Origin: an uncultured Burkholderiales bacterium
Lineage (GTDB): Bacteria > Pseudomonadota > Gammaproteobacteria > Burkholderiales > Burkholderiaceae_D
DNA: 46,451 nt
NCBI GenBank assembly: GCA_903836575.1
Contig: CAILRJ010000355.1
Span: forward strand, 1-46,451
Reading direction: 5' to 3'
The position numbers and the translations under genes were made by a program. Shown here piece after piece: positions 5,465-29,597 of this stretch. Numbering within the stretch: the first letter of the stretch is position 1; each line of letters begins with the position of its first letter. Under the pieces are notes generated by a model. That model was given only the letters and a program-made list of their open reading frames with translations, was not told the DNA's origin and made no database searches.

Positions 5465-5490
5465 GAAGGGAGTTTGAGAATGGTCGAATG

Positions 5491-5504: not shown

Positions 5505-5521
5505 GAGGGTATGGTAATACA

Positions 5522-6985: not shown

Positions 6986-7492
6986 TCAATATTTCCCGAT
7001 GAAATCCCGCTTGCCAACATCGACGCCGTTGTGACGCAGGATTGCGTAGGCTGTCGTTACGTGGAAGAAAAATTGTGGCAGTGAGTAATGTAGCAAGTAG
7101 GTCTGGCCTTTGAATGACTTGCTGTTAGGACCAGAGCTGGTCGTGATGTCGCGTTCTTCGCTTCCATCGATCTGTGCCGCTGGCAGCGAGCCGATAAAAG
7201 CCAGTGTTTTGGCAATGCGTGCCTTGAGTTCGGCAAAGGTCTGTTCGGTATCCTCGTACTTCGGCACGTCGACGCCTGCCAGACGGGCGCAGCTGCCCTT
7301 GGCAAAATCTGCAGCGATCAGGACTTGGCGTGTCAGCGCAAACATGTCCGGGAACAGTCGCGCTTGCAGGAGTGCATTCGGATCGATTTTTTTATCATTG
7401 GCATGCGTTTCGGCTTTATCGAGCAAGTCGGTCAGGCTGTTAAGCATCTGCGTGAACACGGGAACAGACGCGGCGTACATTGAAATAGACAT
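6986..7492 (-). CDS. DUF1993 family protein
   Basis: A 168-residue soluble protein of the DUF1993 family, recognisable from MSISMYAASVPVFTQMLNSLTDLLDKAETHA, the LPDMFALTRQV-like stretch and the C-terminal FFHVTTAYAILRHNGVDVGKRDFIG. The family has a four-helix DinB-like look, but no activity is established. The ORF track extends it to 7615, but that start is unlikely: it would run into the divergent oxidoreductase gene. The ATG at 7492 has a strong CAGGAG Shine-Dalgarno sequence six bases upstream. The 112 bases between this start and the next gene must hold both divergent promoters. Confidence 0.85.
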   Translation of the reverse strand: MSISMYAASVPVFTQMLNSLTDLLDKAETHANDKKIDPNALLQARLFPDMFALTRQVLIAADFAKGSCARLAGVDVPKYEDTEQTFAELKARIAKTLAFIGSLPAAQIDGSEERDITTSSGPNSKSFKGQTYLLHYSLPQFFFHVTTAYAILRHNGVDVGKRDFIGKY

Positions 7493-12522: not shown

Positions 12523-13465
12523 CCCATTTCAGGCAGTTTTTCATGCGCGCTGGGCAGGCTTGCGCGACCCCCACGTGCGTGCTCTGGCCTGGCTGCTGGA
12601 TGCGCCCGATCTACTCGATCCTGCCGCTACGCAATGGGATGGCAAGATTGCCTCGCTGACGCCGGCTTCCGATCTCGCTGTGTGGTTGACAGTGCTCGAT
12701 GGCGCACCGGAAAATTTGCATGCGTTTCTGATGCTGCGTCCGTATGAGCGGCTTGGGCGATATGCCGAAAAACTGCTGGCATTTTATTTTTTACGGCAAG
12801 GCATGCTGGTAGCGCACGGCGTGCAAGTACATTCTGGAAAAAATCAGACGATCGGTGAATTCGATTACTTGTTGCAGAATGCCGGACAGTTTCAACACTG
12901 GGAATTCGCGACCAAGTTATACCTGCTCGAAGGCAGTGCCGATGGCGACTATTTTGTCGGACCCAACCTGGCCGATACGCTAGGAACTAAAATGCGCAAG
13001 ATCCTCGAGCGTCAGCTTGCACTCGGCCAGCATCCGGATGCCCAAATGCATTTGCCGGCACCGATTGAACGGGCTTGCGCATTGATCAAGGGATGGCTGT
13101 TTTATCACGGTAACGATCAGGCTTCGCAGGCGCTCGGCGTGCGATCAGACCACTGCCGCGGCTTCTGGTGCGCGCAGGCTGATGCCGGCCGGTTGGACGC
13201 CGAATGTTATGTGTTGTTGCCGAGATTGTCGTGGCTGGCACCGCTGCAGATCGAGAGCGACCAGACCGTAGGCAAGGCCGCGATGACTGCCGCACTTCAA
13301 ACGCACTTCGCGCAGACTTCGATGCCGGTATTGGTCTCGCTGTTGCGTTTTGTCGATGGCATCGCGCAGGAAACCAGGCGTGGCTTTGTCGTGCCGGACG
13401 ACTGGCGCGAACGTGCCGGCCAGCGCGCGCAGCGTGCCTTCATCGCCAGTCACAGCCGGCCCTAA
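12494..13465 (+). CDS. DUF1853 family protein
   Basis: A 323-residue protein of the DUF1853 family, recognised from LRDPHVRALAWLLDAPDLLD at the N-terminus and LGRYAEKLLAFYFLRQG...VHSGKNQTIGEFDYLLQ, followed by HWEFATKLYLL. The spacing of G-E-F-D and W-E-x-x-x-K resembles a PD-(D/E)xK nuclease core; this is my reading and not established. It overlaps the glycosylase gene by 29 bases if the ATG at 12494 is used. A TTG at 12512 has a better Shine-Dalgarno sequence (AAGGA at 12503-12507) and would shorten it by six residues. Its position after a uracil-DNA glycosylase would fit DNA repair, but that is only context. Confidence 0.85.
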   Translation: MPAKENLQSDPFQAVFHARWAGLRDPHVRALAWLLDAPDLLDPAATQWDGKIASLTPASDLAVWLTVLDGAPENLHAFLMLRPYERLGRYAEKLLAFYFLRQGMLVAHGVQVHSGKNQTIGEFDYLLQNAGQFQHWEFATKLYLLEGSADGDYFVGPNLADTLGTKMRKILERQLALGQHPDAQMHLPAPIERACALIKGWLFYHGNDQASQALGVRSDHCRGFWCAQADAGRLDAECYVLLPRLSWLAPLQIESDQTVGKAAMTAALQTHFAQTSMPVLVSLLRFVDGIAQETRRGFVVPDDWRERAGQRAQRAFIASHSRP

Positions 13466-13469
13466 CTGT

Positions 13470-14738
13470 TTAATGCTTGTGTTCGCCGATCAGCGCCAGT
13501 GAGTCAAATTCCTGTTGGTTGCGTTTGTGCTTGCGCATGACAACCAGCATCATGGAAGAGACGAAAAAGCCAAACATAAAGATGACAATGTTCACGTTCA
13601 GGTTCATTTTTATCATGATCGCATAGAGCACCAGCATGCCCAGTACCGACAGGTTTTCATTAAAGTTCTGGACAGCAATCGAGTGACCGGCACTCATCAG
13701 GACATGACCGCGATGTTGGAGCAGGGCATTCATCGGTACCACGAAATATCCCGACATCGCACCGATCAGGATCAGCAACGGATAGGCAACCCAGACAGTC
13801 GTCACCATCGTCATCGAGATCACCACCAGTCCCATCGCGACGCCCAGCGGCATCACCGACAGAGATTTTTTCAGCGGCACGAAGCGCGCCGCAGCGACGG
13901 CGCCGATCGCCACGCCAACAGCGACCACTCCTTGCAGGATTGCTGCGCGGTCGAGCGGAATATGCAGTGATTTTTCAGCCCATTTCAGGACGATGAATTG
14001 CAGCGTCGCGCCGGCACCCCAGAACAAGGTAGTTACCCCGAGCGAAATCTGGCCCAGCTTGTCTTTCCAGAGCGTCTTGTAGCAGTGTGAAAAATCAACA
14101 ATCAGGCGCAGCGGATTGCGCTGTTGATGCGCGTAACGTGCACCAGTGTCAGGAATTTTAAGGTTAAATGCGGCGGCTAGAAGATACGACAGTGCAATGA
14201 CCGACAGCGCGGCTTCCATCGGCGTATCAACACCGGTATCGATGAGTGGCATGTCGAACTGCAGCAGTGTGGCGGCGATCGTGGGATTGACCAGCGATCC
14301 GCCGAGTACCGTGCCGAAAATGATGGAGGCGATCGTTAGTCCTTCGATCCAGCCGTTGGCGGCCACCAGTCGTTCCGCCGGCAGCAGTTCGGTCATGATG
14401 CCGTACTTGGCTGGTGAATACGCCGCTGCACCGATGCCAACTACTGCGTACGAGATGAGTGGATGCACGTGTAAAAACATCAGGCTGCAGCCAAAGACCT
14501 TGACAAGGTTGGTGATGAACATTACCCGTCCCTTGGGCATGGCATCGGCAAACGCTCCGACAAAGGCCGCCAGCAAGATGTAGGAGAGTGCAAAAAACAA
14601 CTTCAACAATGGTGTCATCCATTGCGGTGAATGCATCTCCGCAAGAAGCGCGATCGCGGCTATCAGTAACGCGTTGTCGGCCAGCGAGGAAAAAAACTGC
14701 GCTGCCATGATGGTGTAAAAACCGCGATTCATACGCAT
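13470..14738 (-). CDS. lplT: Lysophospholipid transporter LplT
   Basis: A 422-residue major-facilitator protein with about twelve membrane helices, of the LplT family. LplT flips lysophosphatidylethanolamine across the inner membrane so that it can be re-acylated. Landmarks are MNRGFYTIMAAQFFSSLADNALLIAAIALL at the N-terminus, GRVMFITNLVKVFGC and AAYSPAKYGIMTELLPAERLVAANGWIEGLT. The acyltransferase Aas, which is often beside or fused to it, is not present here. It converges with the DUF1853 gene with four bases between and is divergent from alr. Confidence 0.93.
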   Translation of the reverse strand: MRMNRGFYTIMAAQFFSSLADNALLIAAIALLAEMHSPQWMTPLLKLFFALSYILLAAFVGAFADAMPKGRVMFITNLVKVFGCSLMFLHVHPLISYAVVGIGAAAYSPAKYGIMTELLPAERLVAANGWIEGLTIASIIFGTVLGGSLVNPTIAATLLQFDMPLIDTGVDTPMEAALSVIALSYLLAAAFNLKIPDTGARYAHQQRNPLRLIVDFSHCYKTLWKDKLGQISLGVTTLFWGAGATLQFIVLKWAEKSLHIPLDRAAILQGVVAVGVAIGAVAAARFVPLKKSLSVMPLGVAMGLVVISMTMVTTVWVAYPLLILIGAMSGYFVVPMNALLQHRGHVLMSAGHSIAVQNFNENLSVLGMLVLYAIMIKMNLNVNIVIFMFGFFVSSMMLVVMRKHKRNQQEFDSLALIGEHKH

Positions 14739-14910
14739 GCTGGGGTTGCTATGGTGGTGATGTCGGCTTGCTTTATACCATGAAAATATCTGGCAACTCT
14801 GAATTTGCGGCGGTGTTGGAGAGGGGCGCTCCGGTAAAATGAACCGTGTTTATTCAAGCGCTAGAAAACCCTCTTTTATTCGGCCTTTTTTACTACTCTT
14901 TATCGGAACT

Positions 14911-15996
14911 ATGCCTAGACCACTTGTCGTCATTATTGATATTCCTGCATTGCAGCATAATTTGTCCGTAGCACGACGACGTATGCCTGCGGCGACTACC
15001 TGGGCAGTAGTCAAGGCGAATGCTTATGGTCATGGCCTGGAGCGTGGCATGCGAGCGTTCGGTGCCGCCGACGGTCTGGCGCTGATCGAGCCCGAAGCGG
15101 CGGTTGCCTTGCGTGAGCTTGGCTGGCAGAAGCCGATTCTTCTGCTTGAAGGCTGTTTTGACCAGAGCGATTTCAGGCTTGCCGCGCAGCACAAATTTGA
15201 AGTGACCATTCATTGTCCGCAGCAAATAGGCTGGCTTGAGAAAACCCGTTTCGACGCGCCAGTCAATGTCCACCTGAAAATGAATAGCGGCATGAATCGG
15301 CTCGGCTTCATGCCACAGGATTTTGCCGCGGCTTATCAGCGTCTGCGTGGCAACCCCCAAGTGGGAACTATTGCGTTGATGACCCACTTCGCCAACGCCG
15401 ATGCGGCTGACAATCCAGGTCTGCCACTGGCTGAACAAGTGCGCCGATTCGAGTTCGGTAGCGCAGGGCTTGAGGCTCCATGGAATATTTCGAATTCCGC
15501 CGCCACACTGCTGCATGCCGATATGCGTAGTCATCAGGTCCGTCCCGGCATCATGCTCTACGGCGGTAGTCCCGGCGCGCACAAGACGTCGCCGGCAGGT
15601 GCCTTCGGCTTGCGTTCGGCGATGACGTTGCAGAGCGAATTGATTGGTATCCAGCAAATCCATCCCGGCGATGCTGTTGGCTACGGTAGCCGTTTTATCG
15701 CGGACGTACCGATGACGATCGGCGTGGTCGCCTGCGGATATGCCGATGGCTATCCGCGTCATGCACCGGGCGGTACCCCGGTGCTGGTTGACGGAGTTCG
15801 TACTCGGCTGGTAGGGAATATCTCGATGGATATGATGACCGTCGATCTGACGGCGATCCCCACGGCGCATCATGGCAGTTGCGTCACGCTGTGGGGTGAC
15901 GGTTTGCCGATCGACGAAGTGGCGGAGGCCGCCGGTACCATCGGTTATGAATTGATGTGTGCCATCGCCCCGCGCGTGCGTGTCACTGAACGATAG
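14911..15996 (+). CDS. alr: Alanine racemase
   Basis: A 361-residue PLP-dependent alanine racemase, which makes D-alanine for peptidoglycan. The PLP lysine lies in WAVVKANAYGHG (about residue 36), the second catalytic residue in AVGYGSRF (Tyr), with NSGMNRLGF and SNSAATLLH also typical. The track start at 14839 adds 24 residues; the ATG at 14911, preceded by CGGAAC, gives the family N-terminus MPRPLVVIIDIPALQHNL. It is divergent from lplT and 19 bases ahead of radA, so alr and radA are probably one transcript. Confidence 0.95.
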   Translation: MPRPLVVIIDIPALQHNLSVARRRMPAATTWAVVKANAYGHGLERGMRAFGAADGLALIEPEAAVALRELGWQKPILLLEGCFDQSDFRLAAQHKFEVTIHCPQQIGWLEKTRFDAPVNVHLKMNSGMNRLGFMPQDFAAAYQRLRGNPQVGTIALMTHFANADAADNPGLPLAEQVRRFEFGSAGLEAPWNISNSAATLLHADMRSHQVRPGIMLYGGSPGAHKTSPAGAFGLRSAMTLQSELIGIQQIHPGDAVGYGSRFIADVPMTIGVVACGYADGYPRHAPGGTPVLVDGVRTRLVGNISMDMMTVDLTAIPTAHHGSCVTLWGDGLPIDEVAEAAGTIGYELMCAIAPRVRVTER

Positions 15997-17475: not shown

Positions 17476-19317
17476 TTAATGTTCGCTTTCCGCAGTGCAG
17501 GTCACAGTGAGTTCACGAACTTCGCCGGCGGCGACTTGCCAGTGATGGTCAGCTTGCCTGCTGACGATTCCTTTGCCATGGGTAATCTTCGGTTTTTGGC
17601 AGAGTGCAACCGGGATGCGCCAAGTCATTTGCGCCAGCGAGGTATCGTGGTGCGCTTTGAGTTCCAGTTTGCCAGCCTGATCGCTCAGTTTCCACTGCAC
17701 TTCTTCCCGCCGACTCATGAAACGCGCCACGTCGGTCATCGTACGCCAATTGAATAAGTGTTGTTCCTGCAGTGATTTGGCGGTATCGAGCAGGGCGCGC
17801 ATTGAGTCAGCGTAATAGGGCACACCGATCGGGTGGCAGTAAATTTGGCGAATAGTTTGGTTGGTAGCGACAAATTTAGTGAGCGCAACGAGCCAGTCCG
17901 TCATCGGCCCGGCTGGTTGTTTGGCGAACATTGCTTCTTCGAACGACGCAATACGGCCGAATGGCGTTATCGGAATGGACCAGGTGCGTTTGTCGATCAG
18001 GGCATTGTTCTGGAACATACGTGTCGGGCCCATGCCCAGATTGGATGTGGTGTAGTAGGTTTCGATTCCATGTCTGCCAATCCAATCGATGACCCAGCGC
18101 GGATGGTTACCGTTTGGTGCCGAGTATTCGGTAATCGGTCGACCGGTGACCTTGCGCATCGCGTCGTTGTTATAGACCAGATATTTTTCATATTCGTTGC
18201 TGTTGGTATCGTTGACGCGCGAGCCGAAATAGTTATGGATCCAGCCACCGTGATCGCCGATGGCGTTGCCGCGTGCTTGTAAATAACGTATCCATTGCTG
18301 CGTTGTGGTGTTGTGAACAACATCCATGCCTAAACCGTCGCCAAACTGATTGACGTCGGGGCCCGCCGTGAAATGTATCGAGTACGGGCCCTGATCAAAA
18401 ATCCCCATTTTTTGTAGCGTGGCGAGACTCTTGATGGCTGAGCCGTTATCGACATGGATATTCAGAATTAGCCCGCCGATGCCGTCCGGTGCAGATAACA
18501 AACGAGGAAGGCCGACAAATTCGTCTGAAAAATAACGCAGGAATGAATGCATCAGCAAGCCATCCGTACGGTTCTTGAGCAAACCCAATGGCAGGTTGAT
18601 AAACAAGGTTTCACCCTTGCCTAGCCGATGTCTGGCTGCGACCACTTGTGTCTCAGGCGTCAGCATCATCACCTCGGTATCGGCTGCAACAGCGCCGGTC
18701 TGGAACAATGGATATTTCAGTTCGCTATAGCGATAAGTCGTCATCCATTGATCAAAGGTCTGGCTATTGAACGAGACCGCTTTCTCCACATCGGTTCGCC
18801 CAGGAGGGATGCCGATACGCGAGACGGATTCTTTCGTACCGATGACCGGGCTGGCACGCACGACGGCTTTGCCGAATTTTTCATACATCGCATATTCAAC
18901 GCCTGCGACGTCGGACAGTCGTGCACTCTCGGGGGCATACGCACCGTTGAGGTCATAGGTCAGCGCATCGAAGACCAGCATGAGTTTGCCGCCTTGCCGG
19001 ACATAATCTCTGAGCGTGTCGGTCAGGTACGTGGAGGCGCGCCGATGGAGTTTGTCGGGCACGATGATTCCCGCATAGGCTTTCTGATCGGATGGTCTGG
19101 CACGCAGGAATTGGCTGGCACTGACGACTTCGAGCTTGATGCCTTCTTCCAGTGCCGCCTGGTGCCAGATCTGTTCGCTATCGGTATCTGTCCCGTCGGC
19201 CACAAGTAAAGCCAATGTGCGTTTTTGATCGAATGCCGGCCAGATGGCATAGGCCAGTGTGCAGCTGGCTACCACTGCGATCGCTAGTAATATCCAGCTG
19301 TTTTTGATGATTTTCAA
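17476..19317 (-). CDS. Large exported polysaccharide deacetylase-like protein with N-terminal amidotransferase-like domain
   Basis: A protein of about 613 residues with an N-terminal hydrophobic anchor or signal (WILLAIAVVASCTLAYAIWP). Residues ~35-270 resemble a class I glutamine-amidotransferase-like alpha/beta fold (YAGIIVPDKL, RDYVRQGGKLMLVFDAL, RHRLGKGETLFINLPLG). Residues ~285-500 look like a divergent NodB-type deacetylase: NIHVDNG near 288 for the first Asp, GDHGGWIHNY near 356 for the metal histidines, YSAPNGNHP near 400, and QIYCHPIG. The architecture recalls fungal Agd3 and the PelA deacetylase half; this is inference. A beta-sandwich-like tail ends the protein. No ATG exists at the 5' end. 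The TTG at 19317 has TAAGGA seven bases upstream and is preferred over the TTG at 19323. It is the last gene of the locus, 274 bases after the preceding one. Confidence 0.72.
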   Translation of the reverse strand: MKIIKNSWILLAIAVVASCTLAYAIWPAFDQKRTLALLVADGTDTDSEQIWHQAALEEGIKLEVVSASQFLRARPSDQKAYAGIIVPDKLHRRASTYLTDTLRDYVRQGGKLMLVFDALTYDLNGAYAPESARLSDVAGVEYAMYEKFGKAVVRASPVIGTKESVSRIGIPPGRTDVEKAVSFNSQTFDQWMTTYRYSELKYPLFQTGAVAADTEVMMLTPETQVVAARHRLGKGETLFINLPLGLLKNRTDGLLMHSFLRYFSDEFVGLPRLLSAPDGIGGLILNIHVDNGSAIKSLATLQKMGIFDQGPYSIHFTAGPDVNQFGDGLGMDVVHNTTTQQWIRYLQARGNAIGDHGGWIHNYFGSRVNDTNSNEYEKYLVYNNDAMRKVTGRPITEYSAPNGNHPRWVIDWIGRHGIETYYTTSNLGMGPTRMFQNNALIDKRTWSIPITPFGRIASFEEAMFAKQPAGPMTDWLVALTKFVATNQTIRQIYCHPIGVPYYADSMRALLDTAKSLQEQHLFNWRTMTDVARFMSRREEVQWKLSDQAGKLELKAHHDTSLAQMTWRIPVALCQKPKITHGKGIVSRQADHHWQVAAGEVRELTVTCTAESEH

Positions 19318-19324
19318 GCGCAAT

Positions 19325-19330
19325 TCCTTA
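19325..19330 (-). promoter_or_regulatory. Shine-Dalgarno site selecting a TTG start
   Basis: TAAGGA on the minus strand lies seven bases before the TTG at 19315-19317. The nearer TTG (19321-19323) is too close to be used well. There is no in-frame ATG near the 5' end of this gene, so a UUG start is required. Confidence 0.55.
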
Positions 19331-19591
19331 TATTAAAGAATGAGGTCGTTGACTGAGGAAACGCTGTCAAGCTCCGCGTTATCACTCGGCACTGCTCGGT
19401 GATGACGTAATTCGTTGGGAAAGTTGCATGGTCTGGTTGACGCGAGATTGCCGCTTGGTGACGATATTCACCACTGTCCCGACTATAAACATCCGAGCTT
19501 CAACTTAATTTGCGGGTTCTCAAGACGCGTGGGTTATCGCAATAAATATGTCATAGCGCCTTGCCTTGACGTTGCGCAGAGCGGTCTTGCA

Positions 19592-20431
19592 CTATCGCGT
19601 GATCCTCGCGGGAATCAGGCTGACCGTCCAGGAGTACAGCGCAACGAATAGCAGCATGTCGAAGACAGCACCAAGGCATAGGTAAAGTACGGGCATATAA
19701 AGCAGTGACATCTTGTAGAGAATCAGTGTGTGCAAGACAACCTTGTGCGGGATCATCAGAGTGAAATAGCCGAGGATGAAAATTGTGTGCACGATTTTGA
19801 CGGTCAGGCTTAGTTCCAGCAGGTAATAGCCAATCGCTAGCATTACTGGAATCGCCAGCATCAGCATGCTGCCCATGCTGATTAGGGCGCGCATGTGATC
19901 CGGGATCGAGTAAGGAAATTGCGATGGCGCATACCAGAAAAATAACAAAGCGAGTGCTTGTACGACGCAGAGGATACGCAACAAGTATTGCAACGGGATC
20001 CTGTCTTTGCTCATGTTTGAGGTCAGAGCAAACACAACAAACGTGGCCAGTGCCGAGATCAGTTTGGTAGTGAAACTGGGCATGTACGACGCATTGGCTG
20101 CACCTATCCATTCAAACTGTAAGGTGTTTGCTAAGGCTGTTTGATGCTGAGCCTGCAAGGGGATGTCCAGGCGTGTCAGCCAGAATTGGATGCAGTCTTG
20201 CCAGAAATTGAGGATAAATGGCTCACCAATTAGCAGCAAGCAAAAAAATAAAACGGGTAACAAGAGCGCTTGCACAATGACGAACGGTTCAGCAGTCAGC
20301 TTGCGCATTGCCCGATGCTGGCCTGCCGCCGCATGGTGCTGCCTTGCGATCCGTATGGCTTGTGCGGCTGACTCGACGGCAGCGTTACGCAGTTGTCTGT
20401 AGGCGGAGAGATTTTCTTTTTGGGTTTGCAT
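19592..20431 (-). CDS. Polytopic inner-membrane protein of unknown function in the polysaccharide locus
   Basis: A 279-residue protein I do not recognise. The first ~50 residues are polar and basic with an alanine- and histidine-rich stretch (RQHHAAAGQHRAMRK), and should be cytoplasmic. About six hydrophobic segments follow: VIVQALLLPVLFFCLLLIG, then a loop of ~50 residues, LISALATFVVFAL, ILCVVQALALLFFWY, MLMLAIPVMLAIGYYLLEL, TIFILGYFTLMI and a long final helix pair. The spacing is somewhat like the Yip1 group, which is a weak resemblance. The ATG at 20431 lies five bases after the YaiO-type gene stop, so they are co-translated. Its place in the operon suggests a part in polymer export or synthase assembly. 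Confidence 0.7.
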   Translation of the reverse strand: MQTQKENLSAYRQLRNAAVESAAQAIRIARQHHAAAGQHRAMRKLTAEPFVIVQALLLPVLFFCLLLIGEPFILNFWQDCIQFWLTRLDIPLQAQHQTALANTLQFEWIGAANASYMPSFTTKLISALATFVVFALTSNMSKDRIPLQYLLRILCVVQALALLFFWYAPSQFPYSIPDHMRALISMGSMLMLAIPVMLAIGYYLLELSLTVKIVHTIFILGYFTLMIPHKVVLHTLILYKMSLLYMPVLYLCLGAVFDMLLFVALYSWTVSLIPARITR

Positions 20432-20436
20432 GGTGC

Positions 20437-21270
20437 TCAATCGAAATGTCGTGACAAGCCAATATCAACGCCGCTACGTTCATACGTCGGATTGCGGTAG
20501 TGGTTAATGCTGATGCTGGTACCCCAGTTCTGGTTGATCCGGTAGCGCCACGCGAGGCTGGCTTCCTGGCTGTTGAAGTTCACCAGGCTGGTATCTAGGG
20601 CCAGTGGCAAATATCCTTCGCTACCCCAAGCCACTCTGGCCGACAAGGTATTGCGTGGATCAGGGTTGTAGCTAGCGGCGACAAATTGCTGGTGCGTCAT
20701 CACACCACCGGGATTACTGCGGTTGAATCGGACGCCGCCTTCAAGAACGAGCGGAAACTCAAAGTACCAGGCGCCACCGAGGCTGATGCTGAGGTCGACA
20801 TGGCCGTCAGGGGCATCGTAGTAGCCAACTCCGAGCGAGCTGATGAAGTTTTTCTCAGGCAACCACTTTTTGTAAAAGAAGCCATCAAGGCGGTAGCGCG
20901 GCAAATAAAAAGCGCCATCCCCAACGCCGACCGAGATGCTTGCAAACCTGCTGTCATCGAGGGTCACGGTATCGGTCACACCGAGGAACGTGCCGCTGGT
21001 GTGATATTCGTTTTTACTTGATAGCTCCACTTGCAATACATGGTTGTCCTGTTCCAGCACGCCGTGGGCAGTCAGGTGGTGCCACGATGAATAGGGTCCC
21101 GTCAGTTGCTGGGTTCCGGTCGTGACTTCGAATGACCGCAGCGCGGGATTCAGGAGCATATCCGGCGGGGCGGTCCTGCTCGTTTCTGCATGTCCTGTTA
21201 TTGCAGTCATTGCGATCCAGGCGAGCGCAACACAACTGAAAGGATAGTTAGCAGGCAATTTCGGCTCCAT
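20437..21270 (-). CDS. YaiO-type outer-membrane beta-barrel protein
   Basis: A 277-residue protein with a signal peptide (FSCVALAWIAMTAITGHAE) and then alternating amphipathic strands rich in aromatic residues, ending in a terminal aromatic-type strand (RSGVDIGLSRHFD). This is the form of the YaiO outer-membrane barrel family; GPYSSWHHLTAHGVLEQDNHVLQVELSSKNEY and the DTVTLDDSRFASISVGVGDGAFYLPRYRLDGFFYKK stretch fit it. In E. coli yaiO is next to a GT2 glycosyltransferase and a deacetylase gene, the same neighbour types as here. The ATG at 21270 is preferred to the TTG at 21288. It overlaps the end of wecB by 23 bases. A role in passing polymer across the outer membrane is inferred. Confidence 0.8.
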   Translation of the reverse strand: MEPKLPANYPFSCVALAWIAMTAITGHAETSRTAPPDMLLNPALRSFEVTTGTQQLTGPYSSWHHLTAHGVLEQDNHVLQVELSSKNEYHTSGTFLGVTDTVTLDDSRFASISVGVGDGAFYLPRYRLDGFFYKKWLPEKNFISSLGVGYYDAPDGHVDLSISLGGAWYFEFPLVLEGGVRFNRSNPGGVMTHQQFVAASYNPDPRNTLSARVAWGSEGYLPLALDTSLVNFNSQEASLAWRYRINQNWGTSISINHYRNPTYERSGVDIGLSRHFD

Positions 21271-22423
21271 CAGACTTTGCAGGCGCAAGGATCGCCGCTA
21301 TCCGTTGTGCCGCGTAGCCATCACCAAAGGGGCTTTGATCGACCTGCATGCGTCGGTATGCAGTACTGTCCTCAAGCAGAGGCCGCGCATGCCGGCATAT
21401 GTCGTCTACATCGGTACCCACCAGCAAGGCACCGCCGGCGTTGACAAGTTCCTGCCGCTCGGTGCTCGTGCGAGCGATCAGTACTGGTTTTGCAAAAGCC
21501 GAGGCCTCTTCCTGAATGCCGCCGGAGTCGGTCAGCGTGAAGTGACAACGCACCAGCAAATCGATTAGCGCTGGATAATCGAGCGGATCGGTCAGGCAGA
21601 TGCGTTCTCTGACGCAGGATGGGAGTGCAGAGATTTCGCGTTCGACATCGCTGCGTACGGCTGGGTTTGGATGGACTGGCCAGACTACAACGACGCCATC
21701 GTGCTGCGCAACGATGGCGCCGGCCGCTTGCGCGATCTGGCGTATTGGTGCGCCCCAGTTTTCGCGACGGTGTGCGGTGATCAGGATCATGCGGTCGCCG
21801 CGATGCTGGTGCAAAAACTGACGGGCGTTTTCCGGGATTGCCGGATTGTTGTCGCGGGAAGCATTTTGCAGATAGTTGCGGGTCCATAATGCGGCGTCGA
21901 TTACGGTATTGCCGACCATGAAAATATTATCGGCAGCGATATTTTCTACGCGCAGATTTTCACGGGCCTGTTCGGTTGGCGGGAAATGCCAATGAGCGAG
22001 CCGACCGATCAGCTCGCGATTTTTTTCTTCAGGAAAGGGGTCGCGTTGATGAGTGCGCAGTCCTGCTTCAATATGGGCAACCGGAATATCGTCGTAATAG
22101 CCAGCCAGCGCACCGACGAACGCGGAACTGGTGTCGCCCTGGACCATAATGACATCGGGTTGTAGTGCGCGAATCGCTTCCGCGACGCCATCGGTCAGTG
22201 CGGATGTCAGGTGGGCCAGCGCCGGCGACTTGCGCTGCAGGTTGATGACAATGTCCGGAGGCATATCGAAGAAACGATACAGTTCGTGAGCAACGGCCTC
22301 ATGCTGACCGGTATGGATTATCTGTACATGCTGTCCGCGCGCCTTGAGTGCCTTGTAGACGGGAGCCATTTTGATGATTTCCGGCCGGGTCCCCAGGCAG
22401 GTAAGAAAAGTCTTTTTTTGCAT
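21248..22423 (-). CDS. wecB: UDP-N-acetylglucosamine 2-epimerase (non-hydrolysing)
   Basis: A 391-residue enzyme that interconverts UDP-GlcNAc and UDP-ManNAc in the cytoplasm. Family motifs are FLTCLGTRPEIIKMAPV at the N-terminus, HIEAGLRTHQRDPFPEEKNREL, ILITAHRRENWG and TDSGGIQEEASAF. The ATG at 22423 gives the conserved start (MQKKTF); the track frame adds 36 unrelated residues. No wecC-type dehydrogenase is adjacent, so UDP-ManNAc itself, rather than its uronate, may be the sugar used by the nearby GT2 synthase. It leads the second sub-cluster of the locus (wecB, barrel, membrane protein). Confidence 0.94.
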   Translation of the reverse strand: MQKKTFLTCLGTRPEIIKMAPVYKALKARGQHVQIIHTGQHEAVAHELYRFFDMPPDIVINLQRKSPALAHLTSALTDGVAEAIRALQPDVIMVQGDTSSAFVGALAGYYDDIPVAHIEAGLRTHQRDPFPEEKNRELIGRLAHWHFPPTEQARENLRVENIAADNIFMVGNTVIDAALWTRNYLQNASRDNNPAIPENARQFLHQHRGDRMILITAHRRENWGAPIRQIAQAAGAIVAQHDGVVVVWPVHPNPAVRSDVEREISALPSCVRERICLTDPLDYPALIDLLVRCHFTLTDSGGIQEEASAFAKPVLIARTSTERQELVNAGGALLVGTDVDDICRHARPLLEDSTAYRRMQVDQSPFGDGYAAQRIAAILAPAKSDGAEIAC

Positions 22424-22498
22424 GAGTAAAAGTAATGCTTTTGTTTTGGTTGTCATGGAAAGCCGATACCCGAATACCCGGACTTGATGCGCCGCCTG

Positions 22499-22513
22499 CG
22501 TTACGCCGTAACG
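22499..22513. promoter_or_regulatory. Inverted repeat upstream of wecB
   Basis: CGTTACG-C-CGTAACG is a perfect 7+7 inverted repeat with a one-base centre. It lies 76 to 90 bases before the wecB start, within the 275-base gap that separates wecB from the hydrolase gene. The gap holds no supported gene, so a separate wecB promoter with this as operator is plausible. Confidence 0.35.
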
Positions 22514-22698
22514 TATGTGGCAATGTTGCAAAGGTTATTCCGGAGAGTGACTTGCGAGAAGCGGGGCAAATTTTTTGGTCCTTTACTTTTATAGCACCGG
22601 AGTTTTTGGCTCTATTTGACAAAAATCATGTTGACTCTCTGTCCATTGAAAATAGGCACATAAAGTTTGAGTTGTCTGTTTAATTCCAGGGTCTATCG

Positions 22699-23685
22699 CT
22701 AGTTACAAGCAGTATTCGCAGCGGCAGACTTGAGTCCTTTGCTTTGAAGAATCTGCGCAACGACTTCATCCGTCACGGTCCAGTGACCGGTTCGCTGATA
22801 CGGCAAGGCTTCCCGTAGCCAGCATTGCGCCGATGTCTTGTCGTTCTGTTTCATGGCGATGTAGGCGATCAATCCCCATGCGTAGTCATTGCTGACTTGC
22901 TTGAGCCAGAGCGCGCGATGCTGTTTCATCCATGTGCGGTAATAGTTGCCGGAGTCGTTGGGTAGCAGCGGGAAATTGACTAGCAACGGAAAAATCTGGG
23001 CGACATGATCCGGATAAAATGCGGGAGTGACGGTTTTCTGTTCGGGTTGGGTCGATACCAGAAAACGTCGGGATTGCGCATCCCAGAAAGTGTTGTGAAT
23101 CGCTTGGGAGAATTTTCGTGCACTCTGGTTTGCTGTCTGTCCGACCCGTGCCGTCTGGTAGGACCATACTTCGAGGTTGTCCATGAATAGCCCATGCTGG
23201 AAGGTTGGCGACACCAGATAGACGCCACGTTTCTTGTCGAGCAGGGTTTCCAGCGCCTTGCTGGCGGCGTTGTGGCTCTTGCGCCAGCCCGGTTGGATGT
23301 CGAGTTGCCCGGGCATCGTGTCGAGGAATTTGAGCCAGATCGCGAGCAATGCGTCATCTGCATCGGCCTCCCGGCAATCAAGCCAGATCGGTCCTGTGCG
23401 GCAGAAGCGGGCAAAGCTGCCGTCAAGACGTTGGCGGATAGTTAGCCAGTCGATCCATTTCGACGCGTAGGCAGAAATGTCGAGGCCATTTTCCTGAGCC
23501 AGCAGTAATGCTTGTAATGTGAAGTACGGATCGATGACATTGCCGGTTTCGAGGATCATGATGGCTCCGGAATCGTCCGCAAATGCCCTCAAATCCAGTA
23601 CCGGCGCTGCGGTTAATGCAACTGGAAACGCCAGCAAAAGCAGCGTGAGTGCAGCATTCCGCCATCGGCGCATCAAGGCTCCCAT
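22699..23685 (-). CDS. Secreted alpha/alpha-toroid hydrolase-like protein
   Basis: A 328-residue protein with a signal peptide (NAALTLLLLAFPVALTAAP). The mature part is helical with repeated aromatic and acidic turns, such as IDPYFTLQALLLAQENGLD, KWIDWLTIRQRLDGSFARFC, DADDALLAIWLKFLD and VWSYQTARVG. That pattern resembles (alpha/alpha)6 six-hairpin glycosidases such as GH8 BcsZ. No family can be named with confidence, and the catalytic acid is not fixed. By position it would cut or trim the polymer in the periplasm, as BcsZ or AlgL do in their systems. Its start overlaps the upstream bactofilin-like gene: ATG at 23685, or ATG at 23673 in a TGATG junction. Confidence 0.68.
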   Translation of the reverse strand: MGALMRRWRNAALTLLLLAFPVALTAAPVLDLRAFADDSGAIMILETGNVIDPYFTLQALLLAQENGLDISAYASKWIDWLTIRQRLDGSFARFCRTGPIWLDCREADADDALLAIWLKFLDTMPGQLDIQPGWRKSHNAASKALETLLDKKRGVYLVSPTFQHGLFMDNLEVWSYQTARVGQTANQSARKFSQAIHNTFWDAQSRRFLVSTQPEQKTVTPAFYPDHVAQIFPLLVNFPLLPNDSGNYYRTWMKQHRALWLKQVSNDYAWGLIAYIAMKQNDKTSAQCWLREALPYQRTGHWTVTDEVVAQILQSKGLKSAAANTACN

Positions 23686-24701
23686 ACAACCCCGACTTTT
23701 CTTGCCCAGATGGTTCCGTGCGCGACTGCACCGGAGATGGCGATAAGATTGTCGGTACTGATCGTGGTCGGTGCATCGGCGCGGCCTATTACCGTGCCGC
23801 TACCGAGCACAATTTCGGTTTCAGAGATGAGTGGTCCCGCCACGCAGGCATGGTCGTGTAGCTCGATGCGGTCTTCGCAGATCAGCGAACCGGTGATTCG
23901 TGCCGAGCGGCCGACTTGTATCGCGTTGCGTGCTTTGACATGGCCGTCGACGATCGTGTGGTGGCCGATCGTCAAGGTTCCCGTGACGATTAGTGATCCT
24001 GTGTAGCTGCAGCCGTCAGTTAGCCGACAGTCGCCCTTGACCAGCGTCAGTGCCGCGGTACGACGGACTGCCCCTGGCAATTCATTGAGGCTAGCCGGTA
24101 AATAGAGATCCAGTTTTTGCGGTGTTGTTGTGGCTTTTTTCCCTAGTTGAATCGTGGGTGCACTGAGTCTTTCGAAACAGCAGCGGCCTGCCAGTTCGAT
24201 GCTGATGTTGGAGGACAGACGCCGCAAGGTGACACAGCCGGTATCGAGACTGATCGGTCCATCGGCGTGGCCCCATTCAAGGATTTCTCCGTTGCTGCCA
24301 AGTCGTAGCATGCCGTGTGACAGGACGCTGGTCAGACTGCTGTTGCCGCCACAGTCGAGGTCCGCGTGCAGGTAGAGCGGTCGGTTGCAGCGGACCGGTG
24401 CGGCAGAGAGGATTGCATCTAGTCCGATCAGCGGTCGGGTACCCTCCGTCCAGTTCATCTGCACCGGCGGCTTATACACATAGTCGAACTTGCTTTGAGC
24501 ACGGTCGCTAGCGATATCAGTGAGGGCATCGTTGCGGAATTGGCGCGTGAAATAATCGACTTCGTTAGCATACTGGCGTGAAATCGGTAAAGGCGAACAG
24601 TCCTCCGGTGCACGCCATTCGTTGACTGCCGGGACGAACGGCAGCGATAGCATGACAAGACATAGAAGGCAGAACAGATACAGCGCAAGGGTTGAATTCA
24701 T
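23673..24701 (-). CDS. Membrane-anchored bactofilin-like beta-helix protein
   Basis: A 342-residue protein with one N-terminal membrane segment (TLALYLFCLLCLVMLSLPFV). A ~180-residue region with several cysteines follows, and then a C-terminal stretch of short hydrophobic repeats (YTGSLIVTGTLTIGHHTIVDGHVKARNAIQVG...ARITGSLICEDRIEL), which is the right-handed beta-helix pattern of bactofilins and polymer-forming proteins. Classical bactofilins are cytoplasmic; this one should have its helix outside the inner membrane if the anchor is a normal signal anchor. The ATG at 24701 lies two bases after the GT2 stop, so the two are tightly coupled. It might scaffold the synthase or bind the polymer. 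Confidence 0.68.
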   Translation of the reverse strand: MNSTLALYLFCLLCLVMLSLPFVPAVNEWRAPEDCSPLPISRQYANEVDYFTRQFRNDALTDIASDRAQSKFDYVYKPPVQMNWTEGTRPLIGLDAILSAAPVRCNRPLYLHADLDCGGNSSLTSVLSHGMLRLGSNGEILEWGHADGPISLDTGCVTLRRLSSNISIELAGRCCFERLSAPTIQLGKKATTTPQKLDLYLPASLNELPGAVRRTAALTLVKGDCRLTDGCSYTGSLIVTGTLTIGHHTIVDGHVKARNAIQVGRSARITGSLICEDRIELHDHACVAGPLISETEIVLGSGTVIGRADAPTTISTDNLIAISGAVAHGTIWARKVGVVWEP

Positions 24702-24703
24702 GA

Positions 24704-26275
24704 TCAGGGTACCGGCGGTTGGCGATAGCGAATGGTCTTGTCCCACACCATTTCGCGTTTAAAGAGCCAGTCGACCAGCAGACTCCAGGAGGCATGGGAT
24801 ATTGCAAACAGACTGATGAAAAAACACAGCAGGTTAAATGGCAGCAGACGCAGTCGCTTGCGATTGCCATCGAGCAGTACTGCAATAGCGATCTCGAAAA
24901 AAGCCGCGAAATTACCCAGCGTGCTGAATGCCATCAAGGCAAAAGCGGGTATGAGCCGGTTCAGCAGCGAACCGGCATTGGCGAAGTACAAGGCCAGAAC
25001 GATGAACCAGCCGGTCAGCAGAAGCAGCGGGACGATAAACACCAGCAGCAGCAGCATGCCGTCAATGCGCTCGCGCAGACTGAGGAAGGGACTGGTCAGG
25101 AAGCTATACCAGTACCGCACCATGACCTGGTTATGTCCCTTGGACCAGCGTTTGACTTGCTTGATGCGGACAGCCCAGTCTTCGGGGACTTCTTCGTAAC
25201 ATTCGGAGCGATTGGTATAGACGGTTTTCCAGCCATTGAGCATCAGGCGGTAAGTGATGTCGGTATCTTCGGCGAGGATGTCGTCATGCCAGCCGCCAGC
25301 CGCGTGCACAGCCGAGCAGCGCACGCCGCCAACGGTGCCACCATATTGCGGCAACAGGCGCAGGTTCATGCGGGCTTGCTGATCGACCTGATAGCCGCCG
25401 GAACGTTCAAGATCAAGCATGCGGGTGAGCAGGTTGGTGCCGGCGTTCATCGGTACTACCCGACCCATTACTGCACCGACTTCGGGATCGAAAAAAGGCG
25501 CGACCAGTTGCTTGAGCAAGCCACGACCGGGTACGTAATCGGCATCGAAGATGATCACGATATCGCCCTCGACATAGGCCAGCGCGTCCTTCAGTGCAGC
25601 GGCTTTGCCGGCCTTGCCGGTTAGCCGATGGAATGGCGTGATACGTCCGGGATAGCGGGCAACGTAACTGTCGATAATGTCGCGGGTACGATCGAGCGAG
25701 CGGTCGTTGACCGGTACGATTTTTAGCCGGTCAGCCGGGTAGTTGGTGTCGAGGAGTGCTTCGATACAGCCTGCAATGACTTTTTCTTCATTGTGCGCAG
25801 CAATGAACACGGTGATCGATGGCCAGTTCGCCTGGTCGATATCGATGTAAGGATGGCGTTGTTTGCCAAACAATCTGCTAATCGTAAAGAGGAAGTGCCG
25901 CACTCCGTAGAGCGCCATGATCAACACGATAATGAACAGCAGCGCCGCCATTAGCGAGATCAACGGCCGGTCACTGATGGTCGGTATTGCATCGCCGATG
26001 CCCACCGAGCGGGCTCTCAGGCCGTCGATATTGTCGAGGTTGATCAGGCTGTTTGCATCTTGTTCCGCGTCCCGTACCAAAGGGGCGGGACTGTCGCTGA
26101 CAGTTGCCTGTTGCGCTGTGCTGGGGATTTCTTCCTGAGTCAGGGACGGTGTTGCGCTTGCCGGTGAGGATATTTGTGCTTGTAATGGCAAGGCGGTCAG
26201 TAGCGCGAAGTGCATGAACAGCGTGGCGATCACGCGCGCGGATCGGGTCCGGCCGACATCGGAGTGGTGGTGCAT
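24704..26275 (-). CDS. Processive family-2 glycosyltransferase, polysaccharide synthase
   Basis: A 523-residue membrane synthase. It opens with a signal-like segment (residues ~14-33) and an exported Ser/Thr/Pro-rich stretch to ~100, then a membrane helix (~105-130). The GT2 catalytic domain carries FIAAHNEE (~157), VPVNDRS (~188), IFDADYV (~242), AEDTD (~335, catalytic base) and QVKRW (~373), the D,D,D,QxxRW set of processive synthases such as PgaC, BcsA and hyaluronan synthase. Three to four C-terminal helices complete a translocation pore. The ATG at 26275 is preceded by AGGGA; the longer track frame begins in non-coding sequence. No PilZ domain is seen, so direct cyclic-di-GMP control is not evident. 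The sugar is probably an N-acetylhexosamine because wecB and a deacetylase are in the locus. Confidence 0.88.
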   Translation of the reverse strand: MHHHSDVGRTRSARVIATLFMHFALLTALPLQAQISSPASATPSLTQEEIPSTAQQATVSDSPAPLVRDAEQDANSLINLDNIDGLRARSVGIGDAIPTISDRPLISLMAALLFIIVLIMALYGVRHFLFTISRLFGKQRHPYIDIDQANWPSITVFIAAHNEEKVIAGCIEALLDTNYPADRLKIVPVNDRSLDRTRDIIDSYVARYPGRITPFHRLTGKAGKAAALKDALAYVEGDIVIIFDADYVPGRGLLKQLVAPFFDPEVGAVMGRVVPMNAGTNLLTRMLDLERSGGYQVDQQARMNLRLLPQYGGTVGGVRCSAVHAAGGWHDDILAEDTDITYRLMLNGWKTVYTNRSECYEEVPEDWAVRIKQVKRWSKGHNQVMVRYWYSFLTSPFLSLRERIDGMLLLLVFIVPLLLLTGWFIVLALYFANAGSLLNRLIPAFALMAFSTLGNFAAFFEIAIAVLLDGNRKRLRLLPFNLLCFFISLFAISHASWSLLVDWLFKREMVWDKTIRYRQPPVP

Positions 26276-26497
26276 AGTTGAGCTTCCCTGTGTATTTTTT
26301 TGTTGAAACGGGTTTCGGCTCCTGTCCGCGTTGCATGACGGACTACTTGGTGCAAGGCCAAAACGTTTGAAAAGTGTATGCGGCGGTTGGCCGCATTCCT
26401 TGACAATCAACAAATGAACTCGAAAGGATGGGAGAGGGGGACGGGGCGGCTCAGATAGTGCTATCCCGATGAAGCCGTGCGTGCCGGCCGGTGTTTA

Positions 26498-27808
26498 TTA
26501 GTCGCGGGTCAGCAACGCCTGCGCTGCAGCAACTCCGCTGCGTACGGCGGACTCAATCGTGGCGGGATAGGCATTGGCGGTGTAGTCGCCGGCCAGTTTC
26601 AAGCCTGACAAGGGGGTGTGACTATCCGGACGCAGCAAACCCGGCGTGCAGCTGAACGTGGCGCGTTTTTCGGAAATGACCTGACTCCATATCGGCATGG
26701 TCAGCTCCGGACGGGAAAATGCCTGCGCCAATTGCTGGCCGACGGCACTTGCCAGTGCCGCCTTGCCCTCGGCGATGGCTTCGTTCGAGGCACTGACGAC
26801 GACCGCAAACAGACCATCATGTCGCGTATCAAGCTGGCCACGATCGAATACGAACTGACCCCAGCGCTGCTGTTGAGGATCATCGATGAGCGCATGAAAC
26901 GGTTCGGGGAGCCGCCGGTCAGGAGGGTATTGCAGATAGCACGTCGTGATGGGCTCATAGGTCAATGCCTGCAGCGTAGTCACGTCGGTCAGCGGCGCCA
27001 GTAAGGTGGCGGCATTGCCGATGTCGGTAGCCAGGACGACCTCGTCGGCATGATGGATAGCACCCGCACTCGTTAGTTGCCATCCCTGGTCACGTCGGGC
27101 GATGGCGGTGATGCGGGTGCCGGTCTGCATCTTGCCCAGGTGCTGTTCAATGAAGTGCGCAGCCTGATTCGGAAACAGGCTGCTCAGGTCGCAGCGAGGT
27201 AGCAGCATGTCCGAGTCGGATCGACGCGCGCCCAAACTGTCTTTCAGCACAGTGAGGAATACTTGCGCCGAGGCACGTTCCGGTGGTGTGTTGAGCGCGG
27301 CGATACACAGTGGCCGCCACATCAGCTGGATCAGCGTGACAGTCTGGTCGAAGCGTTCCAGCAGTTCCGTGACGCTGCAATCCATGTTGAGTTGCCAGTC
27401 CATCCAGCGCGCCGCCGACGAAAATCGCATCAGCGCCAGTTTGTCGGTGCGGGTGAGTCCGCGGGCTCGCCACAAGGCAACTGCCAGGTGTAACGGTGCC
27501 GGTAAGGCAGCGGCAACGAAGTCCATGCCGGTTCCTGGCGGGTAGCGCATTTGCAAGGGCAGGCGCAACAACGCGGTATCGGGGTCGATGCCAACCTGAC
27601 GCATCAGGCGCAGCGACTCACGGTAGGCTCCTAACAGGATGTGCTGACCATTGTCGAGTGACAGGCCCTGGAGGGTGACTTGCCGTGCACGGCCGCCCGG
27701 CGTGCGGGCCGCCTCGAATAACGTAACGCGACGACCGGCTGCAGCCAGTTCGACGGCGGCGGCACAGCCAGCCCACCCAGCACCGATGACGGCAGTGTGT
27801 ATCGTCAT
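26498..27808 (-). CDS. hpnE: Hydroxysqualene dehydroxylase HpnE
   Basis: A 436-residue FAD-dependent amine-oxidase-fold enzyme, the last step of the bacterial hydroxysqualene route to squalene. The dinucleotide-binding motif VIGAGWAGCAAAVELAAAGRRVTLFE opens the protein, followed by TPGGRAR and SLDNGQHILLGAYRESL, which are characteristic of HpnE. The C-terminus has LKLAGDYTANAYPATIESAVRSG, the second FAD-contact region. It begins seven bases after hpnD, so it is co-transcribed in the order hpnC, hpnD, hpnE. No squalene-hopene cyclase gene lies in the window. Confidence 0.94.
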   Translation of the reverse strand: MTIHTAVIGAGWAGCAAAVELAAAGRRVTLFEAARTPGGRARQVTLQGLSLDNGQHILLGAYRESLRLMRQVGIDPDTALLRLPLQMRYPPGTGMDFVAAALPAPLHLAVALWRARGLTRTDKLALMRFSSAARWMDWQLNMDCSVTELLERFDQTVTLIQLMWRPLCIAALNTPPERASAQVFLTVLKDSLGARRSDSDMLLPRCDLSSLFPNQAAHFIEQHLGKMQTGTRITAIARRDQGWQLTSAGAIHHADEVVLATDIGNAATLLAPLTDVTTLQALTYEPITTCYLQYPPDRRLPEPFHALIDDPQQQRWGQFVFDRGQLDTRHDGLFAVVVSASNEAIAEGKAALASAVGQQLAQAFSRPELTMPIWSQVISEKRATFSCTPGLLRPDSHTPLSGLKLAGDYTANAYPATIESAVRSGVAAAQALLTRD

Positions 27809-27815
27809 CGAGCGG

Positions 27816-28649
27816 TCATCCGCGGATATAGGTACGCCACGCCAGCCACAGCTTGCGGATTGGCGTGAGCGAAATGCGCTGCTTCAGTACATGGAATCCA
27901 TCGTGTTCGATTTCCGACAGCAGGGCGCGATAAATCGCCGACATCATCAGGCCCGGTCGCTGGCTGCGCCGGTCGGCGGCCGGCAGCAGTGCCAATGCTT
28001 CATCGTAGGCACTTTGAGCCCGGCGGACCTGGAAGCGCATCAGGTTTTCGAACTGCTCGTTGTGACGGGCATTGAGCAGGTCTGCTGCCGTCACGCCGAA
28101 TTGCTGCAGTTCGTTGACCGGCAGGTAGATCCGGCCGATACGGGCATCTTCGCCGACGTCGCGGATGATGTTGGTGAGCTGGAATGCCAGCCCGAGTTTT
28201 TCGGCGTAGAGCAGTGTCTGCTTGTCGGTATAGCCAAAAATGCTGGCTGACAGGATCCCGACCACGCCGGCGACATGCCAGCAGTATTTTTGCAACCCGA
28301 TGTAATCGAGGTAGCGGGTTTGATCCAGATCCATTTCCATGCCATCGATGATGGCGAGTAAATGCTGGCCATCAAGCTGGTAGGTTGCCATGTGGGGTTG
28401 CAATGCCAGCGTGACCGGATGGGTTGGCGTACCGGCCAGCATCGCGCCGATTTCGCTGCGCCACCAGTGCAGCTTGGTGCGGGCGATGCCGACATCGGTA
28501 CATTCATCGACGGTGTCGTCGACTTCACGGCAAAACGCATACAGCGCCGTAATCGCCCGTCGGCGCTCGGCTGGCAGGAATAAAAAGCTGTAATAAAAAC
28601 TGGAGCCGCTTTGCGCGGCTTTTTGTTGACAGTACTCGTCTGGAGACAT
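27816..28649 (-). CDS. hpnD: Presqualene diphosphate synthase HpnD
   Basis: A 277-residue trans-isoprenyl diphosphate synthase-fold protein that joins two farnesyl diphosphates to presqualene diphosphate. The two aspartate-rich sites are visible: YAFCREVDDTVDEC near residue 37 and NIIRDVGEDARIGRIYLP near 160. SSFYYSFLFLPAERRRAI at the N-terminus is typical of HpnD. It is the middle gene of hpnCDE, 82 bases after hpnC and seven before hpnE. Confidence 0.94.
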   Translation of the reverse strand: MSPDEYCQQKAAQSGSSFYYSFLFLPAERRRAITALYAFCREVDDTVDECTDVGIARTKLHWWRSEIGAMLAGTPTHPVTLALQPHMATYQLDGQHLLAIIDGMEMDLDQTRYLDYIGLQKYCWHVAGVVGILSASIFGYTDKQTLLYAEKLGLAFQLTNIIRDVGEDARIGRIYLPVNELQQFGVTAADLLNARHNEQFENLMRFQVRRAQSAYDEALALLPAADRRSQRPGLMMSAIYRALLSEIEHDGFHVLKQRISLTPIRKLWLAWRTYIRG

Positions 28650-28731
28650 GGATGCGCCGGGCAGGAATCGAAGCCGCTATGCTAGCCGACCACGCCGATA
28701 CCGACAAACCTTATGTCGATACCAGCAGTAT

Positions 28732-29541
28732 TTACATGCGCAGTGCACGCCATAGAAGGCGCAGGTAGTCGGTTTTGCGCAGCGTGGGACGCTGGCGAAA
28801 GACATCGTAATCGACCGCTTCGATCGTGGCGAGGATATGCAATCCGCCTTGCACCACCAGTCGTAATTCCCAGCCGATCCGGCCCGGCAAGCGCAACGCC
28901 AGCGGCGCGCCGGCCAGCAGCAAAGCGCGCGCGCGATCGATTTCGAAGGCCATCAACTGGCGCCAGGCGTCATCGACACGCTGTTCAGTCAGCTGGGTTT
29001 CGCTGACACCGAAACGGGACAGGTCTTCCAGCGGCAAATAGATACGCGACTTCTGCCAGTCGATGGCGACGTCCTGCCAGAAGTTAATCAACTGTAGCGC
29101 GCTGCAAATTGCATCCGATTGCGCCAGGTTACGTGCGTCGGCCGCGCCATACAAATGCAGCATCAGCGCACCGACCGGATTGGCCGAGCGGCGGCAGTAA
29201 TCCAGCAGCGTCGTGAAATCGGTATAACGCGTCGTCACGACATCCTGCCGGAACGCCGACAGCAAGTTGCGCATTGGCGTCAGTGGCAATTGCCAGTCGT
29301 GCACGACGTCGTGGAGCTTGCGAAATAGTGGTTCGGCCGGTGTCCCGCCTGCGGCAATCAGGTCGAGTTGCGCTTCATAGGTATCGAGTGCGGCAATGCG
29401 TTCGTGCGGAGCGGCATCGCCCTCGTCGGCGATGTCATCGGCGCTGCGGGCGAACGCATAAATGGCTTCGACCGGCGGGCGCAGCCGGGCCGGAAGCAGG
29501 ATGGAGGCAACCGGAAAGTTTTCGTAATGATCGACGGCCAT
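28732..29541 (-). CDS. hpnC: Hydroxysqualene synthase HpnC
   Basis: A 269-residue squalene/phytoene synthase-family enzyme which turns presqualene diphosphate into hydroxysqualene. Aspartate-rich motifs are AFARSADDIADEGD and LINFWQDVAIDWQKSRIYLP. The N-terminus MAVDHYENFPVASILLPARLRPPVEAIYAFAR fits HpnC and supports the ATG at 29541, not the longer track frame that reads back through the intergenic operator. It is the first gene of hpnCDE and is divergent from the RND efflux operon. The shared upstream region holds a TetR-type palindrome about 60 bases from its start. Confidence 0.93.
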   Translation of the reverse strand: MAVDHYENFPVASILLPARLRPPVEAIYAFARSADDIADEGDAAPHERIAALDTYEAQLDLIAAGGTPAEPLFRKLHDVVHDWQLPLTPMRNLLSAFRQDVVTTRYTDFTTLLDYCRRSANPVGALMLHLYGAADARNLAQSDAICSALQLINFWQDVAIDWQKSRIYLPLEDLSRFGVSETQLTEQRVDDAWRQLMAFEIDRARALLLAGAPLALRLPGRIGWELRLVVQGGLHILATIEAVDYDVFRQRPTLRKTDYLRLLWRALRM

Positions 29542-29597
29542 GCAGGTTTTCTCCAAGCCAGAAAGGAGTTTGAAAAAATCAGTCGGAGTTTTGTAAT

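Follow-up and report, generated by a model that had tools for sequence, protein, structure and literature searches.

Polymer-modifying deacetylases with a three-domain plan have been proven in several systems, namely Agd3 (PMC7229062), PelA (PMC12022489), PelADA (PMC13254593) and NDST1 (PMC10864358). Agd3 of Aspergillus fumigatus (CE18 with CBM87, PDB 6NWZ; PMC7229062) combines a glutamine amidotransferase (GATase)-like domain lacking the Cys, a NodB-like barrel and a beta-rich C-terminal domain, and is encoded within a polymer-synthesis gene cluster. PelA (CE21; PMC12022489) likewise carries an alpha/beta domain ahead of its periplasmic deacetylase and has an additional hydrolase domain, whereas PelADA of Bacillus cereus (CE26/CBM114; PMC13254593), found in a Gram-positive Pel operon, shows an Agd3-reminiscent three-domain plan without one. 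The substrates of the characterised enzymes are GalNAc polymers or heparan sulfate, and all of them have kept either an Asp-Asp pair or an H-x-D-x-D motif. Bacterial Agd3 homologues in polysaccharide operons were already reported together with Agd3 (PMC7229062); the occurrence of such a plan in a bacterium therefore has precedent. A second relevant system is the NGR glycan of Escherichia coli, with a processive GT2 synthase (NfrB), WecB and an outer-membrane export protein (NfrA). There, NfrB and WecB, without the rest of the ECA pathway, were proposed to make a ManNAc polymer, and the pairing of synthase and wecB genes served as evidence (PMC8669472, PMC8669469).

Here, we analyzed a stretch of 46,451 nucleotides (the window; contig CAILRJ010000355.1) from an uncultured Burkholderiales bacterium, in which a putative deacetylase gene ends a minus-strand run of seven genes:

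24704..26413, minus strand: processive GT2 synthase with DxD, ED and QxxRW (profile matches, alignment)
23673..24746, minus strand: bactofilin-like protein (PF04519, 27.1 bits, just below the cut-off of 27.9)
22699..23685, minus strand: exported (alpha/alpha)-barrel protein, possible chain-trimming hydrolase (model pTM 0.76, weak Foldseek matches)
21248..22531, minus strand: WecB, non-hydrolysing UDP-GlcNAc 2-epimerase (TIGR00236, 377 bits, cut-off 210)
20437..21288, minus strand: YaiO-family outer-membrane beta-barrel, probable exporter (PF19413, TIGR04390)
19592..20440, minus strand: membrane protein without Pfam match, recurring in cassettes
17476..19317, minus strand: exported, three-domain putative deacetylase (TTG start, Pfam, AlphaFold2 model, Foldseek)

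The first-pass annotation of this DNA had considered a deacetylase adjoining a polymer synthase, and the GT2 synthase in the same run bears this out. The location in a polymer-synthesis cluster is shared with Agd3, but WecB is encoded here and no GalNAc pathway. The wecB gene is the only copy found in this genome. The DxD, ED and QxxRW motifs of the synthase are invariant in 12 cassettes, as are the catalytic residues of WecB, whose roles we took from general knowledge of this enzyme. The barrel protein showed weak Foldseek matches to sugar 2-epimerases, the methylmannose polysaccharide hydrolase MmpH and BcsZ; together with the (alpha/alpha)-barrel model, these make a role as chain-trimming hydrolase plausible. 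NDP-sugar dehydrogenases are encoded elsewhere in the genome (contigs C65 and C72), the former resembling UDP-glucose dehydrogenase more than WecC as judged by eye. The otherwise overlapping gene run is broken by gaps of 268 and 167 bases (window 19324-19591 and 22532-22698), which are of similar size in the close relatives L003, L004 and L030 and could hold internal promoters. Directly upstream on the same strand (26498-29646), two genes for squalene/phytoene synthases and one for a flavin amine oxidoreductase follow the pattern of the hopanoid genes hpnC, hpnD and hpnE; in relatives from other genera, the cassette does not include them.

The deacetylase is encoded by a minus-strand open reading frame at 17476-19323, while the plus-strand reading of this interval is interrupted by stops. 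The best start is a TTG at 19317 with AAGGA 7 nt upstream, in agreement with the coordinates first annotated (17476-19317). Another in-frame TTG at 19323, from which residues are numbered here, was rejected as too near the ribosome site. A relative with 41% identity in another genus of the same family (E 4e-150) and dozens of columns, besides H290, H358, H363 and H497, kept across 24 homologues indicate that the frame is real beyond chance. From its sequence, the N-terminus (residues 3-28) was read as a signal peptide or membrane anchor. Cys residues occur in the whole protein only at positions 21, 496, 575 and 609; the sequence VASC (residues 18-21) could suggest a lipoprotein, but this reading was discarded since Ser takes the place of the Cys in an orthologue. 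The protein is divided into the following domains:

18514..19236, minus strand: GATase-like alpha/beta N-terminal domain without Cys, residues about 30-270, part modelled with low confidence
17698..18513, minus strand: NodB-like deacetylase domain, residues about 271-542 (Pfam Polysacc_deac_1, model, Foldseek)
17479..17697, minus strand: beta-rich C-terminal domain, residues about 543-615 (DSSP of the model)

The assignment of a NodB barrel, whose absence would have spoken against the initial annotation, is supported by Pfam, an AlphaFold2 model and Foldseek. Polysacc_deac_1 matched with 23.9 bits (cut-off 23.1), falling under the cut-off in some relatives; this match and the barrel place the protein in the CE4/NodB superfamily, while the canonical TFDDG motif, which supplies the base and the metal Asp, is missing from the 24-sequence alignment. 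The model, built on five sequences only, reached a pTM of 0.69 and a mean pLDDT of 65.8, with the barrel and tail mostly above 70 and residues about 119-228 poor. In this model, D292, H358 and H497 are located at or just past strand ends, as in NodB barrels. The best full-length Foldseek match in the PDB was human NDST1, namely its N-terminal and deacetylase domains (PDB 9f6z, 8chs; PMC10864358), with an E-value of 2.9e-9 and a TM-score of 0.38 by query length. Further matches to the barrel were 3rxz, Salmonella ArnD, H. pylori PgdA (HpPgdA) and insect chitin deacetylase; Agd3 was absent among the 50 matches listed. For the N-terminal domain, the fold matches are GATase and GH42-like (Pfam and Foldseek; part of the domain is poorly modelled), including GMP and aminodeoxychorismate synthases in Foldseek and, weakly, the GATase-like beta-galactosidase trimerisation domain in Pfam. 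The initial suggestion of an amidotransferase-like domain without Cys nucleophile held, as residues 30-270 contain no Cys at all; the domain thus lacks the catalytic residue of class I glutamine amidotransferases and shares the Cys-less GATase-like fold of CBM87. Searches of PDB sequences with phmmer and a nine-member profile gave chance matches only, no NCBIfam model matched the protein, and the fold search against viral models returned only generic deacetylase, esterase and tail-protein matches.

All seven parts of the cassette were found in thirteen other loci with varying gene order (L003, L004, L005, L006, L029, L030, L031, L032, L035, L052, L053, L054 and L055). One of these is located on the Cupriavidus sp. 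P-10 plasmid pMTS1 (L029), and two are cassettes of a single genome (L054, L055); in L004, the contig ends within the synthase, and the deacetylase of L006 is frameshifted. Since L003, L004 and L030 are closely related to the window, their weight as independent evidence is small. The deacetylase family is rare: of 399 genomes from the order, 10 gave a match, which was weak and incomplete in four. Some relatives are encoded on their own, with no cassette around them, which counts against an explanation based on the cassette polymer. In the literature on YaiO with an exopolysaccharide synthase, bactofilin or WecB, no description of this cassette was found.

From the genes, domain families, predicted fold, conserved residues and cassette, we infer an activity, metal ligands, a substrate and an order of steps. 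It is reasonably likely that the protein is a periplasmic N-deacetylase, encoded by the last gene of a synthase-dependent polysaccharide export cassette that uses UDP-ManNAc. WecB would make UDP-ManNAc, the GT2 synthase would polymerise ManNAc through the inner membrane, and the deacetylase would take off part of the acetyl groups in the periplasm. The barrel protein may trim the chains, a task that could replace that of the hydrolase domain of PelA, before YaiO would export the product. The GATase-like domain most likely lengthens the binding cleft, as in Agd3. As WecB is present in every cassette, the polymer probably contains N-acetylmannosamine, in contrast to the GalNAc polymers of Agd3 and PelA. 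In a ManNAc polymer, the N-acetyl group is axial. As in the NGR system, wecB is paired with the synthase gene in every complete cassette examined. However, the similarity between NfrB and the cassette GT2 is very low (24.8% over a short stretch, E 0.011), so that ManNAc as substrate is drawn from analogy. The c-di-GMP-binding MshEN domain of NfrB-type synthases was not found in the GT2 by Pfam, nor an NfrA homologue in the cassette, where YaiO takes its place; the deacetylase, bactofilin-like and barrel proteins are extra compared to the E. coli system. If true, the locus would provide a genetic basis for a deacetylated ManNAc polymer.

An N-deacetylase acting on a mainly GlcNAc-based, PNAG-like polymer, with WecB feeding a minor sugar or another pathway, appears unlikely. 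The nearest named synthase model is indeed PgaC/IcaA, although its score of 120.6 bits is far under the cut-off of 422, and the spacing of the second deacetylase motif is that of PgaB. Against this, WecB is encoded in every cassette, including a plasmid-borne form in Escherichia fergusonii, and pgaA and pgaB are absent from the window.

E. fergusonii RHB18-C04 carries this form on a conjugative plasmid (L050; NZ_CP057682.1, 6581-13206), where an acyltransferase gene replaces that of the deacetylase. The remaining genes encode bactofilin-like, WecB, YaiO-like, membrane, barrel and GT2 proteins (51% identity for the GT2), and no near match to the DNA of this cassette was found among E. coli genomes. 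The K-12 strain of E. coli has yaiO beside yaiP (GT2, 25% identical), an acyltransferase gene (yaiX) split by IS2 and a different deacetylase, YaiS. The yaiO-yaiX-yaiP-yaiS locus thus shares the YaiO porin, a GT2, an acyltransferase gene and a deacetylase with these cassettes, but lacks the WecB, bactofilin-like and barrel genes, and YaiS is short (558-base gene). The comparison suggests export by YaiO with variable tailoring enzymes as a common theme. The acyltransferase of E. fergusonii also implies possible O-acylation of the polymer in some lineages, and its position in place of the deacetylase would suit an esterase removing O-linked rather than N-linked acetyl groups. We regard such an esterase as improbable: every characterised protein of the three-domain plan is an N-deacetylase, and no acyltransferase gene was noticed in the deacetylase-bearing cassettes inspected.

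Regarding the active site of the proposed N-deacetylase, the stretches highlighted in the first-pass annotation, NIHVDNG (288-294), GDHGGWIHNY (356-365) and YSAPNGNHP (400-408), are all encoded in the minus-strand frame. The alignment of 24 homologues revealed the following motifs:

18445..18462, minus strand: motif 1, N288-x-H290-x-D292-N293 (24-sequence alignment)
18235..18252, minus strand: motif 2, H358-GGWI-H363 (24-sequence alignment)
18106..18129, minus strand: motif 3-like EYSAPNGN, residues 399-406, with Ser401 coupled to Asp292 (alignment)
17830..17835, minus strand: motif 5/CM4, H497-P498, probable catalytic acid (alignment; role assigned from CE4/CE18)

No variation occurs at H290, H358, H363, H497 and P498. 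At position 292, 18 of the 24 homologues have Asp and six have Cys, so that the first motif reads H290-x-(Asp/Cys)292. The adjacent position 293 is occupied by Asp in a single homologue (L051) and by Asn, Ser, Ala or Tyr in the other 23, and position 294 is variable. In Agd3 (PMC7229062), NDST1 (PMC10864358) and PelADA (PMC13254593), the metal Asp is located right after the residue equivalent to 292; its lack in 23/24 sequences and the Cys292 of six relatives count against a deacetylase. The spacing to the second His of motif 2 is i+5, which is also that of E. coli PgaB (H184, PMC13366581; H189, PMC7112194), and no conserved Arg is present in the CM3 region (residues 428-466). Asp292 is always paired with Ser401 and Cys292 always with Ala401, resulting from one or two changes on the tree. 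Based on this covariation, residues 292 and 401 are probably in contact.

Motif 1 may be read in two registers. In the first, D292 would act as base and the protein would have lost the metal Asp; in the second, which resembles PelA with a shift of two positions, H290 would be the base and Asp/Cys292 would bind the metal. We tentatively favour a metal held by residues 292, 358 and 363. Catalysis would then most likely proceed via a divalent metal on these positions with H497 as acid, and H290 would be the base or an activator of D292. The lost metal Asp, the lack of a conserved CM3 Arg and the occurrence of Cys292 in six relatives could also indicate a catalytically dead protein that merely binds or guides the polymer. 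This is, in our view, slightly less probable still than the esterase, as the four site His are invariant in all 24 sequences, the Cys form included, and the joint change of Asp/Cys292 and Ser/Ala401 suggests a maintained site.

The first-pass annotation had compared the protein to Agd3 and CE18. While the analogy in architecture stands, membership in CE18 does not: the Pfam profile Agd3_CE (PF25115) matched nothing in this genome, nor did it match nine family members at E<=10, and the CBM87 profile PF25116 gave no match in member scans at the same threshold. As a positive control, a bacterial Agd3 homologue from another genome of the class (L037), which aligns with 6NWZ, matched PF25115 at 1.2e-21 and PF25116 at 1e-13. 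Among the CE18 motifs, the Asp-Asp pair of CM1 (D377, D378) is replaced by Asp or Cys at 292 with an acidic neighbour in 1/24 sequences. The two metal-binding His of CM2 correspond to the invariant H358 and H363, yet in an HxxxxH rather than HxxxH spacing (i+5 instead of i+4). The CM3 Arg (R613) is absent, whereas an MT3-like Pro is retained without its Arg, and the CM4 catalytic His corresponds to the invariant H497, past a strand end in the model. By all tests run, the family is outside the reach of the Agd3 profile and is not CE18 at the level of sequence. Comparison with the other families gave a similar picture. With PelA, the protein shares the His two positions before the motif-1 Asp and the missing CM3 Arg, but H-x-D-x-D is reduced to H-x-(D/C) and no GH166-type hydrolase domain was found by Pfam. 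The Asp-Asp of motif 1, HxxxH and the Arg equivalent to R458 of CE26 are likewise lacking in the 24 homologues, whereas PelADA keeps D262-D263 and HxxxH (PMC13254593). The likeness to NDST1 is structural only, as the NDST deacetylase profile HSNSD-CE (PF12062) did not match, the pair D319-D320 is not kept and no sulfotransferase domain is present. A true CE18 member, i.e. an orthologue of Agd3 with a GalNAc polymer as substrate, is highly improbable despite the same domain order and the bacterial homologues in polysaccharide operons (PMC7229062), since both profiles miss the family but match the control, CM1 and CM3 are not conserved and no GH114 gene is present in the cassette.

The deacetylase appears to represent an as yet unnamed family whose catalytic motif is altered. 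Tentatively, we propose that these proteins form a new carbohydrate-esterase family acting as N-deacetylases on a ManNAc polymer, with a motif 1 of one ligand (Asp/Cys) and an invariant His in place of Asp-Asp, and that they belong to an undescribed, partly plasmid-borne exopolysaccharide cassette where deacetylase and acyltransferase would be interchangeable. A family without the second Asp but with the His kept, beside a WecB-fed synthase, would make it possible to test how the scaffold is adapted to a different sugar. As a whole, the cassette is compact, and its acyltransferase form is carried by the conjugative plasmid of E. fergusonii.

In addition, the genome encodes a second, longer paralogue (G000:C426:2272-3054; L002, L028), which is cut by the contig end. 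Its complete relatives (L016-L019) are 786-831 aa in length; this group has a Thr/Ala-rich insert in the N-terminal half, Cys at 292 and no cassette, with mdoG as neighbour in L033. A locus of another genome (L053; G738:C10:145001-165000) contains two divergent deacetylase genes (5403-7241 and 13392-15539) flanking one cassette. Finally, a PelA-like gene with the classical HIDADG and HSFSHP motifs is located at G000:C350:10079-10771 and downstream (L059), where it spans two overlapping frames, reflecting either a frameshift or an assembly error.
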